This document shows, piece after piece, positions 7,574-49,947 of a stretch of DNA of 49,947 bases; the stretch's first letter is position 1; each line of letters opens with the position of its first letter. Below the pieces are notes generated by a model that saw only the letters and a program-made list of their open reading frames with translations, was not told the DNA's origin and did no database searches. The position numbers and the translations under genes are program-made. This stretch comes from a virus, in the IMG/VR virus record IMGVR_UViG_3300025141_000151, positions 1 through 49,947 of that record, one strand, 5' to 3'.

Positions 7574-10323
7574 TGAGAGTCATCGACGGTGGAGTAGATG
7601 CAAAGGTCACTACTAGGATCGGCACTGAGCCGCTGATCATAGTATGGGTTGATTGGCCTAGTGGGGCAGTATACTATAGTGAGAAAGCATATAAAACGGC
7701 TAGCCCCTGGCTAAAGAGCGTTGGTGACATCAGTGTAAGTGGCACATATAATGAGTTGAATAGTGTCAGTACTGTGCAGATCCAGCTCATTGACCCAGAA
7801 GAATCACTTGAGGATCTATACCAGCAAGATGAAATAGAGGGTATTGATTGTACTGTCTATCTCACTTATCCTAACATAACAAACTACAATCAGATGGAGC
7901 CATTGCTTAAGGGCAGAATCAAGGGTGATAGTTCCTTTGATACAGGCACTAGTATTCTCACTTTTAGTGTTGAGAATATCTTCAGTGATCAGAAGATTGG
8001 CTATGCCCCAGAGGATGGCGATATCACGGATATGTCGCCTGATGCAGTCGGCGTAGCTTGGCCTGTCTCCTTTGGCTCGGTGCTTAAGATCCCCGCTATT
8101 AGAGTGAAGAAGGCTGTTGTTGGTCAGGCTGGGGAAACAGTCAGTGCAAATCAAACCAGTTTCATCATTGAGAATGGTTCCTCGTTTCCTCAGAATAGCT
8201 CAATAGATATTAAGATTGGGCAGATCGGTTTCACCGGTACGTTCAACGGCAATGTCTTTACGCCGAGCGCAGATAATATCGTCCTACATAGCAATCTAGG
8301 CCTAGATACTAATCTAGGTACTGATGGACAAATAGCATACCTCGACGAGTATAAGCATATCGTCGGGTTATATTGTTATGTTGATCACCCTACCTATGGA
8401 GATATGTTCAATAAATGTGTTGCACAGAGTGGGAAGAAATGCTGGTTCTCTAAGCCGTGGCGGGAGAATGGTACTTCTAATGAGCGGGTGCTAGGGGCAA
8501 CAGATATTTTGAAGGAAGTGAGTGGATGGCCACGTGAGTCATGGAGTGATAGCTATCAGCTTGAGGGTTTCTACGAGGATAGTGTGATGGTACACTATCG
8601 AGCTAATGCTGGTGGTTGGTGGATTCCTGCCGGCGTGGAGGTATCAACAGTTGAAACATTCGATGATCTATATGTCTTTAATTGCTTGACCACAATTGAC
8701 TCAGTAGCAGAAGTATACGGTTGGCGCACATTCAATGACAAGCGACTATTCTCGCCTATTCCATCCAGTTATTATACGAAGAACCTAAGTAATACACTTA
8801 ATAGTGTGGCTTGTGCCACGCTGGAGTTCCACACTAGACTAGAGGATTATCCTGGTGAGAACTGGGATGGTGACATCTTCGTCTCTGTACGCGGCTCACT
8901 AGCTGGTGATACCGGTGATATTGTTAAATGGATAATTGATAACTACACTGGGTTAGCTAGTGATAGTGGTTCCTTCGCGGGCGTCAGCACGTCATTGACT
9001 AATTTCCCCAGCCATTTCCACATTAACAAAGTGTGGAATGCCCTCGATTTAGCTCAAGAGATAGCTTGGCAGGCACGGTGCTCGTTGTACGTAAAGAACG
9101 GCACTGTCTTCATGGATTACCTAAGTGAGATCGTTGCCGGCGTAGGAACGATCACACTAGCTGATGTACTACAAGGTAGTCTCACTTATGGTAGACGGCC
9201 ATCCCGTGATATAGTCACAAGAATCGAAGCTAACTGGCTCAAAGACCACAGTGGTCGTCCCTCCGCCACACAGCAATACGTATACGAGAATAACATTGAT
9301 TCATTCGGTATGCAAGAAGAAACATATGATTTCTTCATATACAATATCTTCGAGCTAGTGGAGGCATCAGTCGATTTCTGGGGGTACAGGAAGAGTCAGG
9401 CATGGATGCACGTTACTTTTGTTACGCCACTATTCAATCTAAAGTATGAATATCTTGATGTATTGACTATCAATATGCTGGATATCTCCTCTGTACGTGG
9501 CGTACTGATGGAGCAAACTATATCGGATTTCCTTAGTGAGACACCCATAACGAATAGGGTAGAGATAGCAATGGCATCGGATTCTGCTGTCTCTGAGGAT
9601 ACACAATATTGGGGCGCACCATATGTTGCCCTACCTGATGATCCCACTGACAACATGGCGGAGATTGACTATGACCCGATAAAGAAGCCAGGAACTATAA
9701 CGTGGCGAGGTAGGACAGATGACGATGAAGATGATATCTCCTGCTATTTTAGAGTGAGGACAAAGACGGAGATAGAGCGTAGTACGAATTTCAACGTTAG
9801 GATTGATGCATATGATGAGCGACGTAAAGTTCGTCTCAGTATTAATGTAGATGTGCGACTGATTCTACAAAGTAGTGACGGTAGTGATGCTCTTAGTGAC
9901 ACAACTAAGACTTTGAAGAACGGTCGATGGGAGGGTAATCTTCAGGTTACAGGTGGGACAGGTGATGATGTTGCTCAGATTGAAGTTATCCAGGAGGGTG
10001 GTGATCGCGGTGCAACTAAATGTACTTCTGGCTCATCTGAGTTCTTTGATATTTCGGGGACAGCAATCAGTCCGTCACCTGGAGACATAGGGCCGGCTTA
10101 CTTAATCCCCGTTAAGGTCACCAGTAAACACGATAACACTACTTATGTTTGTAGTATATATGAGGATGGAACAGATGCTGCGGCCACACAGACGGGTGTT
10201 GGGGTGAAGGTCAATCAAATAGCTGCCAATCAAACTATCCCTAATGACACTATTCTTTCTGCTCACAGGCAAAAGTGGGCTGGAGTGTGGTGGCTTACAA
10301 TAGATGTGACGAGGTTATACTAA
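7573..10323 (+). CDS. Large tail hub / tail tip protein
   Basis: 916 residues. The N-terminal ~250 residues ('VSGTYNELNSVSTVQIQLID', 'LLKGRIKGDSSFDTGTSILT') resemble the beta-rich hub domains of siphophage tail tips (gp27/gpJ-like organisation). The central region is rich in aromatic residues and the C-terminal ~250 residues are acidic and beta-rich, probably surface domains. It follows the two small tail genes and precedes another probable virion gene. There is no lysozyme or peptidase motif that I can see, so a wall-degrading activity is not supported. Confidence 0.65.
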   Translation: MRVIDGGVDAKVTTRIGTEPLIIVWVDWPSGAVYYSEKAYKTASPWLKSVGDISVSGTYNELNSVSTVQIQLIDPEESLEDLYQQDEIEGIDCTVYLTYPNITNYNQMEPLLKGRIKGDSSFDTGTSILTFSVENIFSDQKIGYAPEDGDITDMSPDAVGVAWPVSFGSVLKIPAIRVKKAVVGQAGETVSANQTSFIIENGSSFPQNSSIDIKIGQIGFTGTFNGNVFTPSADNIVLHSNLGLDTNLGTDGQIAYLDEYKHIVGLYCYVDHPTYGDMFNKCVAQSGKKCWFSKPWRENGTSNERVLGATDILKEVSGWPRESWSDSYQLEGFYEDSVMVHYRANAGGWWIPAGVEVSTVETFDDLYVFNCLTTIDSVAEVYGWRTFNDKRLFSPIPSSYYTKNLSNTLNSVACATLEFHTRLEDYPGENWDGDIFVSVRGSLAGDTGDIVKWIIDNYTGLASDSGSFAGVSTSLTNFPSHFHINKVWNALDLAQEIAWQARCSLYVKNGTVFMDYLSEIVAGVGTITLADVLQGSLTYGRRPSRDIVTRIEANWLKDHSGRPSATQQYVYENNIDSFGMQEETYDFFIYNIFELVEASVDFWGYRKSQAWMHVTFVTPLFNLKYEYLDVLTINMLDISSVRGVLMEQTISDFLSETPITNRVEIAMASDSAVSEDTQYWGAPYVALPDDPTDNMAEIDYDPIKKPGTITWRGRTDDDEDDISCYFRVRTKTEIERSTNFNVRIDAYDERRKVRLSINVDVRLILQSSDGSDALSDTTKTLKNGRWEGNLQVTGGTGDDVAQIEVIQEGGDRGATKCTSGSSEFFDISGTAISPSPGDIGPAYLIPVKVTSKHDNTTYVCSIYEDGTDAAATQTGVGVKVNQIAANQTIPNDTILSAHRQKWAGVWWLTIDVTRLY

Positions 10324-22504: not shown

Positions 22505-22556
22505 AATCAATTCCTCCTGTTCTACTTTATCCAACTGTAGCACGCGACGACAGAGG

Positions 22557-22595
22557 TGATTGTGTAATCAAAAGCGCAGACTGATTACGAAATCA
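22557..22595. promoter_or_regulatory. Two TGATT-N4-AATCA palindromes, left of the inverted repeat
   Basis: TGATTGTGTAATCA at 22557-22570 and TGATTACGAAATCA at 22582-22595; start-to-start spacing 25 bp. They lie 53-91 bp upstream of the first leftward gene, where an operator or initiator site would be expected. Confidence 0.8.
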
Positions 22596-22621
22596 AATGC
22601 TGACATTTATTAGCTAGTAAA

Positions 22622-22857
22622 TGATTTGATTACACGGCGTGTAGGACTTTTACCTACTATATTCCCAAAAAACCGAAAAACGGAACTATGTAGTTCCTAA
22701 TATTTCTCTAGCACTCTCTTTTCTATCTCTCTATTATGTAGTAGAACTATATTTCCTTTGTAGTAAAGTATGTAAGTAAGAATAGAAGAAAGTCCGATTT
22801 TACGGCTTTTTGGGAATATAGTGGTATGTAGGTTGAAAGCGTCGTGTAATCAAATCA
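22622..22857. repeat. Long imperfect inverted repeat in the origin region
   Basis: Left arm starts TGATTTGATTACACG (22622-22636) and right arm ends with its exact complement CGTGTAATCAAATCA (22843-22857). Further in, ACTATATTCCCAAAAA (22656-22671) pairs exactly with TTTTTGGGAATATAGT (22807-22822), followed on both sides by similar CCG-rich/A-rich stretches up to about 22686 and 22791. The arms are thus ~65 bp each and enclose ~105 bp. Confidence 0.85.
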
Positions 22858-22870
22858 TTTTCGACATTAT

Positions 22871-23000
22871 TGATTATACAATCACTTGATTCTGTAATCA
22901 CTTATTAACCTGGTGATTATGTAATCAAGTAAGTACATAGGAGGAACCTAATGCGTTGATACTTACGATGAGGTGAGTGTGAGTGTTGATTGTGTAATCA
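22871..23000. promoter_or_regulatory. Four TGATT-N4-AATCA palindromes, right of the inverted repeat
   Basis: TGATTATACAATCA (22871-22884), TGATTCTGTAATCA (22887-22900), TGATTATGTAATCA (22914-22927) and TGATTGTGTAATCA (22987-23000). The last ends immediately before the GAAGGAGAG ribosome site of the ParB-like gene, so a bound protein would repress that gene. Perfect 5+4+5 symmetry indicates a dimeric DNA-binding protein. Confidence 0.85.
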
Positions 23001-23015
23001 GAAGGAGAGAGAACG

Positions 23016-38753: not shown

Positions 38754-38962
38754 CTGACGTAATGGTGAGTAAGCAAGGCGATGTGTATCTACTGGAGGAC
38801 ACAAACGGCGATCAAATAGTGTTGAAGAATGTGGAGGAAAAGTATGTAGGGAAATGGTGCACTATTAGGAAGAGTAAAGAGTATTATTACATAGTACGAC
38901 GTTGTAGCTATAATCGAGCTATGGCACTATTCAAGAAGGTGGCACATGTACAAGATTACTGA
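38747..38962 (+). CDS. Hypothetical small beta-rich protein
   Basis: 71 residues, overlaps both neighbours. 'DVYLLEDTNGDQIVLKNVEE' followed by a basic strand pair. Possibly an SH3-like barrel by pattern, not certain. Confidence 0.5.
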   Translation: MLTDVMVSKQGDVYLLEDTNGDQIVLKNVEEKYVGKWCTIRKSKEYYYIVRRCSYNRAMALFKKVAHVQDY

Positions 38963-39425
38963 TAACGGGATGCGGACACACGGTAGTAGGTTTCAGTGGG
39001 AACTAGGCGTGAAGCAGACGATAGCGCGTACATTAGGATACCCTGATGAGAGGGCATCACTGTGTAGTGGCGCATGGTTCCACTATTATGAGACAAAACT
39101 AGCCGCAAGGGCGCTGAATCTGATTCAAGGTGCCTTCTGGGAAGATAACTGTCGGCTATTCAAGATCGAGGTGGGTGGATTGATTAAGGTGGCTGAAGGT
39201 AAGGCCGGCTGCACTGAGCTAACATTGGTTGAGGAGATACCATTCGTGTCGATGGGGAGGACTGAATTGGAGGCTCTTGCTCGGCCTATATTCGCACATC
39301 TTTCAAAGGTAGAGACGGGGTACCTGCTGGCTGACAGGACTATGACTGGTCTCCGACTCATGATTGAGGCTCACTGGACACTGTTGAGGGCCGTGTTCGC
39401 AAAAAGAGAGCAACAAAATGTATAA
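38946..39425 (+). CDS. Tandem paralogue 1 (GCTELTL family)
   Basis: 159 residues. 'GSRFQWELGVKQTIARTLGY', 'CSGAWFHYYETKLAARALNL', 'LFKIEVGGLIKVAEGKAGCT' and ELTLVEEIPF define a phage family in which the C--G-FH-Y---L-A--LN---G and G-K-GCT-LTL--EIP segments are conserved. Two more copies follow directly. The conserved cysteine, histidine and aromatic residues suggest a compact, possibly metal-binding fold; function unknown. Confidence 0.6.
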   Translation: MYKITDNGMRTHGSRFQWELGVKQTIARTLGYPDERASLCSGAWFHYYETKLAARALNLIQGAFWEDNCRLFKIEVGGLIKVAEGKAGCTELTLVEEIPFVSMGRTELEALARPIFAHLSKVETGYLLADRTMTGLRLMIEAHWTLLRAVFAKREQQNV

Positions 39426-39864
39426 GATAACAAGTGGGCATATGACGACGTATGGTGGGCTCCAGTGGAAACTAGGCGTGAAGCAGACGATTGAGTGGCC
39501 TAATGCTGAGGTGGGGCTATGCAACGATTACTGGTTTCACTACTATGAAACGAAACTAGCCGCAAGGGCGCTGAATAGTATCCAGGGTGCTTTCATTGAG
39601 CGTGACTGTAGGTTATTCAAGATCGAAGTAGGTGGATTGATTAGGCAGGGGTATGGTAAGACTGGTTGCACCGAGCTAACATTGCTTGAGGAGGTGCCGT
39701 TTGTGCCAATGGGGAGTATGGAACTAATGAATATTACGGGCGTGGATTCGATCCCCCTACACTGGGTGAATAACCCACAACGTATCAAACGCTACATCGA
39801 GCGTAAATGGGACAAGTATGGTCCGCGTTTCGATATGCTGGAGAAGGCGAATGCGAGTATATAA
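39418..39864 (+). CDS. Tandem paralogue 2 (GCTELTL family)
   Basis: 148 residues. Close to paralogue 1 over its first ~95 residues ('GLQWKLGVKQTIEW', 'YWFHYYETKLAARALNSIQG', 'TGCTELTLLEEVPFVPMG') and divergent afterwards. Overlaps its neighbours by a few codons. Confidence 0.6.
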   Translation: MYKITSGHMTTYGGLQWKLGVKQTIEWPNAEVGLCNDYWFHYYETKLAARALNSIQGAFIERDCRLFKIEVGGLIRQGYGKTGCTELTLLEEVPFVPMGSMELMNITGVDSIPLHWVNNPQRIKRYIERKWDKYGPRFDMLEKANASI

Positions 39865-40372
39865 GCTGACAAATCAAGACAGGTGTACATTCAAGGGCTA
39901 TTACTGGAGGGTAGGTAGGAAGGAGATGATAAAGAAGGTGGATGAGGAGGCAAAACTATGTAAGTCGCATTGGTTCCACTGCTATGAGAAAGAGGGCTAC
40001 GCACGAATGCTGAACCCTGTACATGCCGGTTTCTTCAATACGAGGATGTTTGTAGCTGAGGCTGGAGGTGAGATAAAGGTTGGACAAGGGAAAATGGGTT
40101 GCACTGAACTAACACTATTAGAGGAGGTGCCGTATAGCCCCTATACGTGGATTGAAACAGAGAGGGTATTGGTTGCTCTGGCTAATTTTCATTACGGATA
40201 TACGCCTGATTGGGTGAAGTGGAAGGAAGGGAGTGTAACCACTAAGTTCATCTGTGACTCTGGTGTATACCACGTAGCAGCGGCTATTGAGGTGAAATCA
40301 ATATACGGAGCCACCTCTTGTATACTAAGACTGTGGAACAAGGACATCGTCGATGGATCACTTAGTAGCTGA
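39851..40372 (+). CDS. Tandem paralogue 3 (GCTELTL family)
   Basis: 173 residues from ATG 39851 with GGAGAAGG upstream. 'YYWRVGRKEMIKKVDEEAKL', 'SHWFHCYEKEGYARMLNPVH' and 'MGCTELTLLEEVPYSPYTWI' match the other two. It has a longer C-terminus. Most diverged copy, and closest in form to single-copy family members (LNP-H-G). Confidence 0.6.
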   Translation: MRVYKLTNQDRCTFKGYYWRVGRKEMIKKVDEEAKLCKSHWFHCYEKEGYARMLNPVHAGFFNTRMFVAEAGGEIKVGQGKMGCTELTLLEEVPYSPYTWIETERVLVALANFHYGYTPDWVKWKEGSVTTKFICDSGVYHVAAAIEVKSIYGATSCILRLWNKDIVDGSLSS

Positions 40373-43980: not shown

Positions 43981-44828
43981 GAGATTACATCAGTCCCACG
44001 CAGTTCACGATGTGGTATGATTGTCCAATCAAATGGTACATTGGCTACGTACTTGATAGAAGGTTATTTAAACAGACGATGCCGATGGCAGTAGGATCTG
44101 CTTTCGATGCATTCGTCAAAGTTAAAGTGCTATCATTGTTTGGGCGGCAGATAGACGGTAATAAGCTATTGGAGCAGCAGGTACAGATAAAGGGTGAGAT
44201 GAGAGACGTCGCCATAGCAGAGGGTTTTCGCGTGTTTCAGTTGTACTGTCAGAGTGGTGTGCTAGAGCGGCTAGCGCGCGAGCTGGATGAGAATGTGGAT
44301 GTGACTGGGGAGTTGAAAAAGGATATCGGCGGTGTGACAGTGCTTGGCCTACCTGACTGCTCGACTAAGTGGTTAGTGTTGGACTGGAAAGTGACGGGGT
44401 ATGGAAAAGGGCGGACAGTGTCACCTGAGGGAGGAGCGACATGGGTGAGTAGAGAGCATGCGCGAAGAGTGAAGCCACGCACTGCGGTGGCGCATGGCGT
44501 GACAATCAACTCGGAGACTATCGCTCCTGACAAGGGCAAATGGATATACTGGTATCCACAAGTGGTGATTTATTCAATGTTGCTTGATGTGCCTTTAGCA
44601 GGTATCGATCAAGTGTGTTATCGGGGTGATGGATCAGTGAATGTGGCTTGCCATCGGTATCGTATAAGCCCAGAGGAAAAGGAGCACATAAGAGAGCGCT
44701 TAGTGAATATGCAGGCCCACATTAATAAAGGCCACTATTTGCATGATTTGTCCTTTGAGCAGAGCATTGAGCTTTGTGCTGAGCTAAGAGATGACACAAC
44801 ACTACAGGACTGGTACCTAGCGCTTTGA
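43977..44828 (+). CDS. PD-(D/E)XK nuclease (RecB/Cas4-like)
   Basis: 283 residues. 'ISPTQFTMWYDCPIKWYIGY' and 'MPMAVGSAFDAF' are the usual opening (S-S----Y--CP--Y... G---H/D); 'GLPDCSTKWLVLDWKV' contains the catalytic D127 and D136-x-K138; 'YPQVVIYSMLL' is the Q-x-x-x-Y motif. No Cas genes or CRISPR array are nearby and the four Fe-S cysteines of Cas4 are not obvious. It is likely a replication/recombination exonuclease. It is the last gene of the rightward block. Confidence 0.8.
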   Translation: MRDYISPTQFTMWYDCPIKWYIGYVLDRRLFKQTMPMAVGSAFDAFVKVKVLSLFGRQIDGNKLLEQQVQIKGEMRDVAIAEGFRVFQLYCQSGVLERLARELDENVDVTGELKKDIGGVTVLGLPDCSTKWLVLDWKVTGYGKGRTVSPEGGATWVSREHARRVKPRTAVAHGVTINSETIAPDKGKWIYWYPQVVIYSMLLDVPLAGIDQVCYRGDGSVNVACHRYRISPEEKEHIRERLVNMQAHINKGHYLHDLSFEQSIELCAELRDDTTLQDWYLAL

Positions 44829-44841
44829 GAGGTAACCTTTC

Positions 44842-44855
44842 TGATTATCTAATCA
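44842..44855. promoter_or_regulatory. TGATT-N4-AATCA palindrome after the last rightward gene
   Basis: TGATTATCTAATCA, the same 5+4+5 palindrome found six times at 22.5-23.0 kb, here 14 nt downstream of the nuclease stop. Confidence 0.75.
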
Positions 44856-44956
44856 AGCATAAAGCATAAAGCTAGGGAGGGATCTATTAGCTAATGAATG
44901 TTAGCATGTAGGGTAGTGCTTCAGGAGGTGTGAGCCACCTTGGCTATGAGGTGGAA

Positions 44957-44997
44957 GGCGGCGTAGAGAGAGGGTTTGAGGGCCTCTCTACGTCGCC
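44957..44997. terminator. Strong hairpin at the end of the rightward transcription unit
   Basis: Arms GGCGGCGTAGAGAG (44957-44970) and CTCTCTACGTCGCC (44984-44997) pair over 14 bp with one G-U and a 13-nt loop. Likely 3' end of the rightward transcript, possibly with Rho, since no T tract follows. Confidence 0.6.
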
Positions 44998-45297
44998 ATC
45001 GCTTAGCCTCACCTCGGGCCGGTAAGGTGGATTAGAGCGGCTGAGGAGAGGCTTAGAGCGGCTGTAGCGGCTGTGGATGCATCCCTTCCAGTCTAACCTT
45101 TGGGCCTAACAACATCTGCCCTGAGCTTCTTTCACTACACTCTCACTACCCTTCTATTTTCTCTAGGAGAGGTATATTTCTTAGGTAGTAAGGTATATAG
45201 GTATGGAGCAGGAATCGTGCCAATCGCTGCTTATTGCCCCATTTATTTTCACCTTTCTGTGATTGCTAATTTCGGATAAAGTGCTCCCGTTGGTCGC

Positions 45298-45509
45298 TTT
45301 ACTAGTCGCATTATGCATTGCTTAGGTGTGATTTACTAGTCGCATTATGCATTGCTTAGGTGTGATTTACTAGTCGCATTGTGCATTGCTTAGGTGTGAT
45401 TTACTAGTCGCATTGTGCATTGCTTAGGTGATTTACTAGTCGCATTGTGCATTGCTTAGGTGTGATTTACTAGTCGCATTGTGCATTGCTTAGGTGTGAT
45501 TTACTAGTT
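45298..45509. repeat. 34-bp tandem repeat array (six full copies)
   Basis: The unit starts ACTAGTCGCATTATGCATTG and continues CTTAGGTGTGATTT. Unit starts at 45301, 45335, 45369, 45403, 45435 and 45469 with a partial seventh at 45503. Copies 1-2 have ATTATG, copies 3-6 ATTGTG; copy 4 lacks 2 bp (32-bp spacing). There are no spacers, so it is not CRISPR. It resembles iteron-type arrays. Confidence 0.9.
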
Positions 45510-45715
45510 ATAATTGCGTACTGTTTCTAACCTTATGCTTCTGGTTGATTACTCGCCCATTTCGGACCCAAATGGTGCTCTGAAACGGCTCTAGGTTTAC
45601 ACTTTTCAGCGACCTCCCAGACCCTTGATTACGAAATCTTTTGGCCCTCGATCCTTTAATGACAGTTCCTCTTCCTCTAAAGCATCCGGAGTGGGTACCG
45701 GCTGTTAGATAAAGA

Positions 45716-45765
45716 GAGGAGTCACCTTTCGATGACTCCTCAGGGTCAACATGTAGGCTGACCCT
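45716..45765 (-). terminator. Double hairpin terminator of the leftward block
   Basis: Perfect stems AGGGTCA/TGACCCT (45742-45765) and GAGGAGTCA/TGACTCCTC (45716-45741). Read leftward, the second is followed by TCTTTATCTAA, a T-rich tail, so it fits a Rho-independent terminator for the genes to its right. The minus-strand frame across it (45508-45786) is an artefact of the repeats. Confidence 0.65.
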
Positions 45766-45803
45766 TTGCATGGAGGTGCACTCCATAGCAACAAAGGGGC
45801 AGG

Positions 45804-45871
45804 TGCTAATTTACTCAGTCCACTATCGGAACACCGATGCTAATTTACTCAGTCCACTATCGGAACGCCGA
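45804..45871. repeat. 34-bp tandem duplication over the 3' end of a gene
   Basis: Two copies, 45804-45837 and 45838-45871, with one difference (ACACCGA vs ACGCCGA). The second contains the last codons and stop of the leftward gene ending at 45849. Confidence 0.85.
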
Positions 45872-46259
45872 CCAGATCGTAGTAGGTGTCCCTTATATAG
45901 TCCATTTCCTCCATTGGGACCGCACTATAGACACTCAGGTACAGCTTGTCCTTCTGATACGTGAAGTCAAAGTACGGAATGTGATGGACCTCAATAGTCC
46001 GCTTCAATCGCTTGAGAAGGACAGGCGCCTCTTCCAGGCTGATACGAACCTTGCAGGCTGTCACTCCTTCGGGCAAAGTACCGCACTCAAAGCTGGCCAT
46101 GAGGGTATTATCTTCGAGCAGAGTACCGCACTCAAAGCTGGCCATGAGGGTATTATCCTCGTGCCGAATCTGAGCACTATTGATGGACCTGTCCTTGCGC
46201 ATGGCAGTGACGAGGCTTTCAACATCCTCAGTATAATACACTCGACGCTTTGTAACCAT
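45849..46259 (-). CDS. Hypothetical protein with a 15-residue internal duplication
   Basis: 136 residues, ATG at 46259 preceded by AGAGGTGCACA. 'EDNTLMASFECGTL' occurs twice in tandem; the DNA (46078-46167, 45-bp period, first 35 bases identical) shows that the duplication is recent. The rest is alpha/beta ('APVLLKRLKRTIEVHHIPYF'). Function unknown. It is the last gene of the leftward block, before the double hairpin. Confidence 0.6.
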   Translation of the reverse strand: MVTKRRVYYTEDVESLVTAMRKDRSINSAQIRHEDNTLMASFECGTLLEDNTLMASFECGTLPEGVTACKVRISLEEAPVLLKRLKRTIEVHHIPYFDFTYQKDKLYLSVYSAVPMEEMDYIRDTYYDLVGVPIVD

Positions 46260-46381
46260 TGTGCACCTCTTCGCTTGCGCACCTGCCCCTATGTTGCCAT
46301 AGAGTACAAAAGCTTAGGCCCTCAATTGTACGCCGTCAGCAGGAACTCTAGAATACAGGCGGGAAGGTCAGTAGCTGACCT
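46260..46381. other. Intergenic leader of the 45849-46259 gene
   Basis: Contains the left copy of a 30-bp inverted repeat (46311-46340), a GGTCAG-CTA-CTGACC hairpin (about 46366-46380) and a CTATG/CATAG hairpin. The ribosome site AGGTGCACA precedes the ATG, and the same bases precede the GTG of the 46382-47524 gene. Confidence 0.5.
46311..46340 (+). repeat. 30-bp inverted repeat, left copy
   Basis: Starts AGCTTAGGCCCTCAATTGTA. Its inverted partner at 47543-47572 is 27/30 identical. Together they bracket the ParB-like gene at 46382-47524. Confidence 0.85.
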
Positions 46382-47524
46382 TTACCCTTCGGCGCTCTCG
46401 GATTCCGGCAGGGGAGCCACGTCGTACTTGTACTTGTGCTCCCGGTTAAAGTACCGCTTGAGTTCTTCGGTGAACTCTGTCTCGAAGAGGCGGCTTCCCG
46501 CCTCTATCTGCTCAAGCGCATGCTTGAACCTGTCGTGGTCGCCCACATGGGCGAGTTGGATCAGGAGGGCCACGTCATCACACGTGGTATTCTCCAGAAG
46601 ATCCTTCTGGACCTTCACGCTCAGCGCACGTGGAGGCTTTCCCTCTGCGGGATTGCGGATGTACTTATCCACCTGTACCTCGCTGGACCTGTTCTTCAAC
46701 AGATCATCGAGCTTCTGGTACGTGATCGGGCCCCAGGAATTCTCGCTTATGACAGTATCCACGACGTTGATTGCCGGGAATTTGTCATGGAGCTTGAGAA
46801 GCCTCCAGATCTTCTGCGCGATCGTGGGCGAGTACTCCTTCCTGAGTCTATTCTCATTGCAGCCAAGGCCGCGGAGAATCTTGCAGCTTCGGAGCTTCGC
46901 CGCGAACGAGGGCTCAACGACGCCCACATTCCGCCGTTCATTCTCATGAACGTTGTCATACGCGCGGTCGAGCTCATCCTCAAACGCCTTCACGATGACG
47001 CTCACCTCAGTGAGCTGCCCCATGCCCAGTGCTATCCTTGCAGCGTTCGCCGCAGGGAACACACTGTTGCGTCTGTTGGCATCATTGGCAATGTGCGTGG
47101 GCTTGATCGGATTGCCGGCAGCCGTCAGCCACATGGCCTTCAGCTCACGCAAGACCTCAGCAGGTAGAACCTCGAACGATCCTTCCTGACTGGAGCCCTT
47201 CGCGTCAGCAATCGGAGCTTCGCCCTTCTGCGTCCCGTAGAGGTACTGGTCCATGTCAGCCCAGTCCTTCTGCGGACTCTCAGCCAGCCGTTCGATGCGC
47301 TTCAGCTCAGCCTTCCTGTAGGCCAGAACTTCCTCCACATCCTCAGGCGTGGCCGCGTACACACTCACCGCTTGGTTGTGGTCCCAGCCGCCCACGATGG
47401 AATCCCGCAGCTCGGCGGTCTTAGCCTTGCTGGGATGCAAGGCTTCGCCTTCGCGAGACACATTGCGTCCGGGGATCCAACCGATTTTACTGATGGCAGA
47501 AATGGTAGCTTTGATGATATTCAC
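46382..47524 (-). CDS. ParB-like protein 3 (divergent)
   Basis: 380 residues from GTG 47524, 7 nt after AGGTG (TTG 47557 lies in the inverted repeat and is rejected). 'ELRDSIVGGWDHNQAVSVYA' fits the SI--G--P--V opening of ParB domains, 'PTHIANDANRRNSVFPAANA' replaces the GxRR box, and 'EVSVIVKAFEDELDRAYDNV' with HENERRNVGVVEPSFAAKL corresponds to the EN-x-R box. 'GLGCNENRLRKEYSPTIAQK' is the expected HTH. The C-terminal ~120 residues are unfamiliar. The gene is more GC-rich than the other two ParB-like genes. Homology is by pattern only. Confidence 0.6.
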   Translation of the reverse strand: MNIIKATISAISKIGWIPGRNVSREGEALHPSKAKTAELRDSIVGGWDHNQAVSVYAATPEDVEEVLAYRKAELKRIERLAESPQKDWADMDQYLYGTQKGEAPIADAKGSSQEGSFEVLPAEVLRELKAMWLTAAGNPIKPTHIANDANRRNSVFPAANAARIALGMGQLTEVSVIVKAFEDELDRAYDNVHENERRNVGVVEPSFAAKLRSCKILRGLGCNENRLRKEYSPTIAQKIWRLLKLHDKFPAINVVDTVISENSWGPITYQKLDDLLKNRSSEVQVDKYIRNPAEGKPPRALSVKVQKDLLENTTCDDVALLIQLAHVGDHDRFKHALEQIEAGSRLFETEFTEELKRYFNREHKYKYDVAPLPESESAEG

Positions 47525-47542
47525 GATTGTGCACCTCAATAC

Positions 47543-47572
47543 GCTGACGGCGCACAATTGAGAACCTAAGCT
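47543..47572 (-). repeat. 30-bp inverted repeat, right copy
   Basis: Reverse complement begins AGCTTAGGTTCTCAATTGTG, matching the left copy at 46311-46340 with 3 differences. Overlaps the leader of the ParB-like gene 3. Confidence 0.85.
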
Positions 47573-47574
47573 CT

Positions 47575-47602
47575 GTTCCCTCCCCTATAGGGGAAGGGAG
47601 CG
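47575..47602. promoter_or_regulatory. Repeated CCCTATAGGGG element, copy 1
   Basis: GTTCCCTCCCCTATAGGGGA then AGGGAGCG. Nearly palindromic around CCCCTATAGGGG. The same element is at 47865-47892 and a variant at 48301-48327, each in a gap between leftward genes. Read leftward, CCCTATAGGGGAGGG looks like the initiation half of a T7-type promoter, but could equally be a processing hairpin. Confidence 0.65.
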
Positions 47603-47611
47603 GTCCTTATG

Positions 47612-47848
47612 TTACTTGTACTGCTTCTCGTGACTGTAGAAGTGCTTGAGCACTTCATCCGCCCGCTTCAACCGCTCAACCTTACCCGTCGCCTTGTGGG
47701 TCAGTTCCCACTCATCGACAGCGTTCAAGTAGAGGGCATCCAGGTGTCGAGACTCCACTCGGGATAGCTGTCCACTGCTTCCTTCGATATGGAAGTTCGT
47801 AAGCACCTTATCCACATATCCGAGCTTCACTAGAAAAGAGTAGTTCAT
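47612..47848 (-). CDS. Hypothetical small protein
   Basis: 78 residues, ATG at 47848 with AAGAAGGA upstream. Helical with 'SRVESRHLDALYLNAVDEWE'. Flanked on both sides by the CCCTATAGGGG element, so it forms a separate expression unit. Confidence 0.55.
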   Translation of the reverse strand: MNYSFLVKLGYVDKVLTNFHIEGSSGQLSRVESRHLDALYLNAVDEWELTHKATGKVERLKRADEVLKHFYSHEKQYK

Positions 47849-47864
47849 GTCCTTCTTTCCGGAC

Positions 47865-47892
47865 CGTTCCCTCCCCTATAGGGTAAGGGAGC
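47865..47892. promoter_or_regulatory. Repeated CCCTATAGGGG element, copy 2
   Basis: GTTCCCTCCCCTATAGGGTA then AGGGAGCG; differs from copy 1 by one base. Lies 17-44 nt upstream of the leftward gene starting at 47848. Confidence 0.65.
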
Positions 47893-47914
47893 GCAAGCGT
47901 TGAGGGTGAGAGTG

Positions 47915-48277
47915 CTAGGCTTGGAGTTGTGCGGCCTGAAGCTCAATGCTCCGCCGCAGGGTGAATGTCGCCAGGAGGTGGAGGGTCGGGTAGAAGTGCT
48001 TCACCTCCTTGTCGTACTCTTTATCCATGCTATTCCAGAGGTGCAGGATGATAATAGGGAACTCCGGCGGAGCCATAATGGCTCCACGGCTCAGGAGGGT
48101 TTTCGCGACTTTTCCGCCGACGCTAGTCAGCGGGAAAGCGACGTACCCGGACCAATCATAGCTCGCCAGCTCATGAAACTCTTCAATCCCTGGCTGCATG
48201 TGATCTCTCCCGTTGGAGAGATACATTTGCGGTGGGGTCCGAACCCACCGCCCGTTCCGGTTGCGCCAAATGGTCAT
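47915..48277 (-). CDS. Hypothetical protein
   Basis: 120 residues, ATG at 48277 with AGAGGCC upstream. Contains 'GYVAFPLTSVGGKVAKTLLS' and 'KEVKHFYPTLHLLATFTLRR'; no motif recognised. Flanked by the CCCTATAGGGG element on its left and a variant of it in its leader (48301-48327). Confidence 0.5.
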   Translation of the reverse strand: MTIWRNRNGRWVRTPPQMYLSNGRDHMQPGIEEFHELASYDWSGYVAFPLTSVGGKVAKTLLSRGAIMAPPEFPIIILHLWNSMDKEYDKEVKHFYPTLHLLATFTLRRSIELQAAQLQA

Positions 48278-48300
48278 CGTGGCCTCTATCTTTCTGCCCG

Positions 48301-48327
48301 CGCTCCCTTCCCTAGAGGAGAGGGAAC
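48301..48327. promoter_or_regulatory. Variant of the CCCTATAGGGG element
   Basis: CGCTCCCTTCCCTAGAGGAG then AGGGAAC. It has the same ends as copies 1 and 2 but in the opposite orientation and with CTAGAG at the centre; a second GAGGAGAGGGAA follows directly. Confidence 0.5.
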
Positions 48328-48399
48328 TGAGAGGAGAGGGAATTGATTGGTTTTTGTCAGGCTCAACGAACCTGTTTTGTTAATCCGGCGTGAACGAGT

Positions 48400-48439
48400 A
48401 CGTCAGTACGTCAGTACGTCAGTACGTCAGTACGTCAGT
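48400..48439. repeat. (ACGTCAGT)5 octanucleotide array
   Basis: Five perfect 8-bp units, ending at the stop codon of the leftward gene 48439-48657. Confidence 0.95.
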
Positions 48440-48657
48440 TACTGGAGGACCCAATGAACTGCATCATTAAAGCTATTGCCGGTGCCATGGTTGGTGGCAC
48501 CGCCCGGGGCGACCCAGTGCAAGCTGTAGCCATCGTCCCTTAAAACGGCGAAACCGCGGCCACGTTCGATGTGGTTGATTTCGAGGACGGCGCCTGCCTT
48601 AACGAAAAGACGCAGGTTGCCGATTGTGGACCATTTGCCGGTGGTCATGTCAGTCAT
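48439..48657 (-). CDS. Hypothetical small protein bracketed by octanucleotide arrays
   Basis: 72 residues, ATG at 48657 with AAGGAG upstream. Beta-rich: 'IGNLRLFVKAGAVLEINHIE', 'GFAVLRDDGYSLHWVAPGG'. (ACGTCAGT)n arrays lie on both sides, five copies after it and six before. No family recognised. Confidence 0.55.
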   Translation of the reverse strand: MTDMTTGKWSTIGNLRLFVKAGAVLEINHIERGRGFAVLRDDGYSLHWVAPGGATNHGTGNSFNDAVHWVLQ

Positions 48658-48708
48658 GTCAATCTCCTTAGTATTCTGGTTTTCTCGGGCAGGGCAACGA
48701 AGACGCCC

Positions 48709-48756
48709 ACGTCAGTACGTCAGTACGTCAGTACGTCAGTACGTCAGTACGTCAGT
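48709..48756. repeat. (ACGTCAGT)6 octanucleotide array
   Basis: Six perfect 8-bp units, 52 bp upstream of the leftward gene starting at 48657. Same unit and orientation as the array at 48400-48439. Confidence 0.95.
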
Positions 48757-48774
48757 TCTCGCCGGTCAATCGTT

Positions 48775-49039
48775 ACCGTTAAGATGCTAATAGCTCAGGA
48801 TTTCAAGATCTGGTTTCATGGCCTGCGTAGGCTCGCCAGCGCCAGTCCAATGGATTGGCTACTCTCGCCATCTCATGGCCCCCGCTATACTGGGATTACA
48901 GCCCCAACTCTCGCCATCGGGTCTCGTGGCCTGCGTAGGCTCGCAAACACCAGTCTAATAGATTGGCGTTCCCGGCTCCGGCTCAAGCGGTTACCATGGC
49001 GCAAGTCGCGAGTACTTTCGCCACTTGCATCTTAACGGT
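48775..49039. repeat. 13-bp inverted repeat pair with internal direct repeats
   Basis: ACCGTTAAGATGC (48775-48787) and GCATCTTAACGGT (49027-49039) are exact complements. Between them TGGCCTGCGTAGGCTCGC starts two copies of a ~41-bp imperfect repeat at 48819 and 48927 (108 bp apart). This looks like a small non-coding element with terminal inverted repeats. Confidence 0.65.
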
Positions 49040-49112
49040 GTAATTATCGTGGCACCATAATTGGCGGCGTCCCGCTTTCGCGGGGTACTTTCACCACGTT
49101 CAGCGAATTTGC

Positions 49113-49655
49113 TCAGTCTTGCATATTGCCCCCCGTGTAGTCATGGTCATAGCAGGACGGCCCGTTGGCCGTCGCGGCGTTTGGGCTCGCGCTCTTTGCG
49201 CGGCCCAAACCCAAACGCCGCGACGTTCCTATTCCCTCGCCTTCGGTCGCTGGGTCGCGCTGCACTCGTCGCGTGGCCAGTCCACGCCCCGCGTAATCTG
49301 GTTGGAGTTTAGCCCGCGCCAACTTGCGGCGCTGGGCATGGTTCAGTTTCGAGTACTCGGCGAGAGTAGCCAATCCGTGGCCAGGAGACGGGCGGCGTAT
49401 GCTACCCGTCCGATTATTTTTGACACGCTCTCGCGTAGGCTTGATAGTCAAGCGGACGCGACCCACTGTCCTCTCATTTAGCGTAGCTACCTGCTCGCGC
49501 ACGGGGTCGGTCGGGATTGTGCTCGCATCTCTCGGTTGACCGAGGACGTCCTCTCCGGCAGCTTGCATCCTCCGCACACGTTCATCATACGTGCCATGGT
49601 ACCGGCTACCGTCTCCCGTCGTTCTCGTCGATGTTGTTTTGTTAGACTGGCGCAT
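49113..49655 (-). CDS. Putative basic protein (uncertain gene)
   Basis: 180 residues, ATG at 49655. R/T/S-rich and without a hydrophobic core: 'MRQSNKTTSTRTTGDGSRYH', 'RVRLTIKPTRERVKNNRTGS'. The middle 'HAQRRKLARAKLQPDYAGRG' is basic and helical. A 16-bp perfect hairpin (49170-49185/49210-49225) lies in its 3' part. It could be a DNA-binding early protein or a chance frame in GC-rich DNA. No family recognised. Confidence 0.4.
   Translation of the reverse strand: MRQSNKTTSTRTTGDGSRYHGTYDERVRRMQAAGEDVLGQPRDASTIPTDPVREQVATLNERTVGRVRLTIKPTRERVKNNRTGSIRRPSPGHGLATLAEYSKLNHAQRRKLARAKLQPDYAGRGLATRRVQRDPATEGEGIGTSRRLGLGRAKSASPNAATANGPSCYDHDYTGGNMQD
49170..49225. terminator. 16-bp perfect hairpin
   Basis: CGTCGCGGCGTTTGGG (49170-49185) pairs with CCCAAACGCCGCGACG (49210-49225), loop 24 nt. 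A second CCCAAA (49204-49209) gives an alternative pairing. It lies within the questionable leftward frame 49113-49655. Confidence 0.6.
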
Positions 49656-49821
49656 GTCCCTAAGTACAATGTCCTACACTAAATGCAAGGGTAAACGCGC
49701 AAAAATCTTTCGCCAGGCACGAAAAAAGTTGGCGTTTTCGGTGATTCCGGAATCATCAAAATATACGGCACCACTATCATAGTGTTATGGTATAATGTGG
49801 TATTGTCCGAATTAATATGTT

Positions 49822-49886
49822 GAGTTGATGTACTGAGTTGATGTACTGAGTTGATGTACTGAGTTGATGTACTGAGTTAATATGTT
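49822..49886. repeat. 13-bp tandem repeat (GAGTTGATGTACT)4 plus a degenerate copy
   Basis: Four perfect units at 49822, 49835, 49848 and 49861, then GAGTTAATATGTT at 49874. The array is preceded by AATTAATATGTT, similar to the degenerate copy. Confidence 0.9.
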
Positions 49887-49924
49887 AGGGGTAGGGGTTA
49901 TTCTTACAATCCGTGTTCAGTTAT

Positions 49925-49938
49925 CCTACACGTGTAGG
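49925..49938. repeat. 14-bp perfect palindrome
   Basis: CCTACACGTGTAGG, near the right edge. Possible protein-binding site; too short to say more. Confidence 0.6.
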
Positions 49939-49947
49939 TGTACCCCC

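Follow-up and report, generated by a model that had tools for sequence, protein, structure and literature searches.

Two perfect octanucleotide arrays around a small gene of an orphan virus, most likely of the long-unit intergenic repeat class

Tandem repeats with long units are known in bacterial intergenic DNA, where heptamers outnumber every other class in most genomes (PMC4679880, PMC4692102). Replication slippage has been proposed as their cause, and strains differ by indels of whole units, in increments of 7 nt (PMC4679880, PMC4692102). The bacterial heptanucleotide arrays, such as STRR, TAACTGA and GGGAATC, share several features with the two arrays described here: perfect head-to-tail units of 7-8 bp, an intergenic position and an occurrence across unrelated taxa (PMC4679880, PMC4692102). 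The whole-unit indels between close strains, for which slippage has been proposed, are a further common point, seen for the present unit, ACGTCAGT, in the group of Mycobacterium phage Dori and in Vibrio. In contrast to the bacterial repeats, the unit is here an octamer, it is found in a phage and at two sites round one gene, and it does not belong to a genome-wide family. A second described system with some likeness is that of the parS/omega heptad operators of pSM19035, in which short direct repeats also follow each other without gaps close to small genes (PMC9499535). Unlike these operators, the present arrays show no linked binding protein or partition system and no promoter overlap. They most likely fit the known class of long-unit intergenic repeats, as a real, non-random and mildly interesting case.

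The linear virus record analysed here as the window (IMGVR_UViG_3300025141_000151, 49,947 bases) represents a fragment of about 50 kb of an orphan virus, for which the searches gave no close relative. It contains tail genes, a primase, a family A polymerase, two ParB-like proteins, a ligase and an exonuclease, and no tRNA was found in it. No nucleotide relatives were obtained for positions 44000-49947 in the phage collection, nor for 48390-49947 among phages or plasmids. Array 1 consists of five perfect copies of ACGTCAGT at 48400-48439, the period of 8 being perfect from 48397 (48397-48439). Array 2 consists of six perfect copies at 48709-48756, and the units of both arrays lie in the same, plus-strand orientation. 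The two sets of copies around a 72-residue gene, as first noticed from the sequence, could thus be confirmed, and so could their placement relative to this gene. Array 1 lies directly downstream of it, sharing base 48439 with its TAA stop codon, and about 120 bp upstream of the next gene on the same minus strand (120 aa, 47915-48277). Array 2 lies in the presumed 5' leader, starting 51 bp upstream of the ATG, and its other end adjoins a folded non-coding stretch. Apart from the one base in the stop codon both arrays are intergenic; ORFs that cross them on the opposite strand exist and were not taken as genes. As head-to-tail perfect units, they fall within the 5-11 bp range that defines long-unit intergenic simple sequence repeats (VNTRs), and both lie mainly outside coding sequence, as this class does.

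The octamer is found 13 times in the window against 1.3 expected, a number reached in none of 100 dinucleotide shuffles, and a chance origin of the arrays is excluded. When dimers of ACGTCAGT with up to three mismatches were searched in the whole window, none was found beyond the arrays, except for one match with three mismatches at 8981. The two arrays have 44 identical bases in direct orientation (48397-48440 and 48714-48757), at a distance of 317 bp from start to start, and no flanking homology extends this identity.

The 72-aa gene (48439-48657, minus strand) is plausible and of unknown function. An AAGGAG motif lies just 5' of its ATG, and its GC content by codon position (0.56/0.45/0.67) is similar to that of the adjacent minus-strand genes. 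No relatives of the 72-aa protein or of the 391-aa protein encoded nearby were found in the viral contig or phage collections, and none of the 283-aa protein among the viral contigs. No DNA-binding family could be recognized in the 72-aa protein. Its predicted structure is beta-rich, with a low confidence (pLDDT 53) that makes it unusable for a fold search.

The same octamer occurs in other genomes. Arrays of at least three copies are present in five viral contig records, which represent three viruses, and two copies are found in 13 records. For comparison, two copies of the reversed control octamer are found in 16 records, mostly as a repeated element or as isolated matches of 16-18 bp, and three matches, all short, were obtained with a second control octamer in the same collection. 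Counting only independent arrays of at least 27 bp among the viral contigs, there are four for ACGTCAGT, one for the reversed control and none for the second control. This excess over the two controls hints at a selection specific to the unit, on small numbers. Among 84,980 species genomes, at least three copies were found in ten records from unrelated taxa, with one array in each, except for a MAG in which a further short match was present. The arrays of this octamer are thus sporadic and at most mildly favoured. A literature search gave no paper with the doubled octamer, and the matches to the bare octamer were unrelated.

The direct identity of 44 bp raises the question of a cassette, in which recombination between the two arrays would remove or exchange the 72-aa gene. 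Recombination over such an identity could occur, and this part of the sequence-only reading stands; the deletion itself was not met with, as no empty or swapped version was seen. The view of the arrays as cassette borders turned out to be unsupported, since different genes are enclosed and the flanks have nothing in common. A gene flanked by the same octamer on both sides was sought in all other records bearing it, viral and cellular, and none was found. Moreover, in a distant relative of the virus, described below, the two arrays that flank a small gene have different units and thus cannot recombine with each other. A deletion or insertion cassette is therefore very improbable.

One of the viral records with the octamer is Mycobacterium phage Dori. 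Its ACGTCAGT array lies in the tail genes, in the gap that separates gp22 from gp23, a short distance past the stop codon of gp22. Like those of the window, it is made of the same octamer in perfect copies (5-7 units in this group), shortly after a stop codon and in an intergenic gap. It differs in being single, in lying in a tail operon of an unrelated phage, and in bracketing no gene. Four near-identical mycobacteriophages carry the array at one site with identical flanks, with 5 units in Dori, 6 in Mask and 7 in both Mao1 and Sejanus. Across 7.1 kb, a single substitution and one 8-bp unit separate Dori from Mask. The more distant relatives of Dori (prophiT49-1, Jeon, Mycofy2, Laurie and Argie) are without the array, and no neighbouring gene is lost in them. 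A similar variation is observed in bacteria, with about 13 units in Vibrio inusitatus and about 6 in V. comitans at a common intergenic site. In the Dori group and in Vibrio, the array therefore changes by whole units and faster than the neighbouring DNA. As a separate observation, a lake virus carries an array of the same octamer (L009 4118-4189) at a place homologous to that of Dori (L011 5124-5164), after its gp22 homologue; its orientation is opposite to that in Dori, and it opens with the palindrome CTGACGTCAG.

The two window arrays are thus probably octanucleotide simple sequence repeats generated by replication slippage in a repeat-rich non-coding zone, with no dedicated function. The first step would be a short, imperfectly repeated seed; the polymerase would then slip by whole 8-bp units, so that the array could grow, shrink and stay perfect. 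Local copying, through template switching or recombination, would have carried the ACGTCAGT unit over 270 bp to the second site. The arrays would be kept outside genes because steps of 8 bp would disrupt reading frames. The 72-aa gene would lie between them incidentally, array 2 adjusting at most the length of its leader. For the window arrays themselves, we infer the slippage, the copying step and the absence of a dedicated function; local copying is circumstantially supported by the other dispersed duplications of the zone. Some points count against slippage: the presence of one unit at two positions separated by 270 bp requires this extra copying step; the presence of arrays at the same genomic position in the distant relative could mean a positional function; and ACGTCAGT is somewhat commoner than the two control octamers, although in few cases. 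If slippage holds, the arrays would be fast markers for separating phage strains, and the Dori group would provide a culturable system for measuring octamer slippage in phages.

A regulatory role may also be considered, by analogy with omega (the ParB of pSM19035), which attaches to unspaced heptads at more than one promoter: a dimeric phage regulator would bind the contiguous octamers cooperatively, as on operator or centromere arrays, and both transcription units would be co-regulated. Each of the two arrays indeed lies upstream of a minus-strand gene, their five and six contiguous copies are more than the four required in pSM19035 (PMC9499535), and the virus encodes two ParB-like proteins. 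However, the ParB-like genes are unlinked, at a distance of 20-25 kb, no RHH or ParA family was found in the neighbouring genes examined, and the 72-aa protein, as noted, has no recognizable DNA-binding family. The window holds no further ACGTCAGT sites, no sigma-70-like promoter was found at the arrays, and in the phages that carry the octamer its number of units drifts. In addition, one gene of the distant relative has different units on its two sides. Such an operator function is accordingly judged unlikely.

This distant relative, G017 (IMGVR_UViG_3300048591_000302, a contig of 70.7 kb), was found by a search with the ligase. It has the same gene order as the window virus, with 46% identity in the polymerase, 36% in the ligase and 30% in the exonuclease. 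About 3 kb after the exonuclease, a nearly perfect heptamer array of GAGCGTG, of at least 22 units, runs off the contig. Both contig ends carry this array in one orientation (L060 14907-15066 and L061 18634-18749), which makes the contig a probable complete circular map, broken within a long array. This array is followed by a small gene (about 99 aa), an AGGGACA array of 9.4 units, degenerate 45-bp repeats, a TerS-like gene and a gpA-type TerL. The TerL has a Pfam match (E 4e-37), whereas the TerS-like gene, without a Pfam match, is called by its position and size only. Elsewhere in G017, the same filter passes a single array, which is coding and has a 15-bp unit in 2.4 copies.

The window virus and G017 therefore have in common short perfect arrays between the exonuclease and the terminase zone, flanking a single small gene, and in both viruses such arrays appear largely confined to the zone before the terminase. 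In the window, the terminase would lie past the end of the record, as judged from its position in G017. The two viruses differ in that the units of G017 are not the same as each other, and its gene of about 99 aa, located on the other strand, is unrelated to the 72-aa gene. The 391-aa gene was likewise compared with a 340-aa gene of G017, and no homology was found. The two viruses thus agree in the position of the arrays and differ in the unit and the gene. This speaks against both a dedicated deletion cassette and a fixed operator. G017 also bears on the initial view that no phage arrangement of this kind had been described: single arrays of the octamer are present in phages, and in G017 two different arrays enclose a small gene; for the rest, this view stands.

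The location of these arrays could also point to a packaging or replication site, in which the zone before the terminase would be a pac or cos site or an origin, with repeats recognized by a TerS or a replication protein that evolves fast. The arrays of G017 immediately precede its TerS-like and TerL genes, at the assembly break of the apparently circular map, and the window ends at the equivalent place. On the other hand, two heptamers in G017 and an octamer with a 13-mer in the window do not make up a single site type, and the ACGTCAGT array of Dori lies between tail genes. Perfect homogeneity together with a changing copy number is unlike the known pac or cos sites. It is by its position that the zone suggests a packaging or replication role, which we consider quite unlikely; a regulatory role is possible but unlikely too. 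In a broader reading, also unlikely, one phage lineage would keep short perfect arrays round a small gene just upstream of the terminase for a role tied to their position (start of packaging, replication or control of that gene), and the units would be replaced between lineages, in co-evolution with a fast-changing binding protein. If a positional reading were true, short arrays before the terminase would point to a type of packaging or replication site with a quickly evolving unit.

The end of the window differs from its remainder in composition and in repeats. The orphan minus-strand genes of the last 5 kb have a GC3 of 0.62-0.73, against 0.33-0.56 in the other genes measured. The window has five perfect tandem arrays, of which four sit within its final 4.7 kb; their units measure 34, 8, 8 and 13 bp. 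Besides the two octamer arrays, these are a non-coding array of 6.3 nearly perfect copies of a 34-bp unit (45298-45508) and, near the contig end, an array of 4.5 copies of the 13-bp unit TGAGTTGATGTAC (49821-49878). Short direct and inverted duplications are also concentrated in the last 5 kb. Sigma-70 promoters and intrinsic terminators show no clear excess over shuffles in the array-rich zone, and an Rfam search of 44800-49947 with a relaxed threshold gave matches at chance level only.

The stretch that adjoins array 2 (48757-49655, plus strand, about 0.9 kb) folds strongly and is probably non-coding. Against 20 shuffles of each strand, the folding of 48700-49660 has a z-score of -7.0 on the plus and -4.6 on the minus strand. 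A 180-aa ORF within it (49113-49655) has a flat GC content by codon position and looks non-coding. A 52-bp segment is duplicated at 48808 and 48916, with a compensatory change in its hairpin (CCAGTCC..GGATTGG and CCAGTCT..AGATTGG), and an 18-nt perfect long-range complement links 48852-48869 to 49359-49376. No Rfam family matches 48757-49655, which is a candidate for a large structured RNA.

Several other repeats were observed along the record. A 136-aa gene is bracketed by inverted repeats of about 30 nt (45777-45806 and 46279-46308, 87%), and so is its neighbour, the 391-aa gene (46311-46340 and 47543-47572, 90%). The 136-aa gene contains an in-frame 45-bp tandem duplication (46067-46161), and a 34-bp duplication (45804-45871) overlaps its 3' end. 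Three related REP-like palindromes of the CCCTCCCCTATAGGGGAAGGGAG type (47575-47602, 47866-47893 and 48302-48329) separate successive minus-strand genes. Outside the last 5 kb, short duplications are nearly limited to duplicated genes and to one region at 22-23 kb. In this region, a cluster of inverted and direct repeats at 22550-23010 (for example 22619-22639 and 22840-22860) lies between divergently oriented gene blocks, and is a candidate origin-like or regulatory element. At 38946-40372, three adjacent paralogous genes of about 150-180 aa derive from tandem gene duplication.
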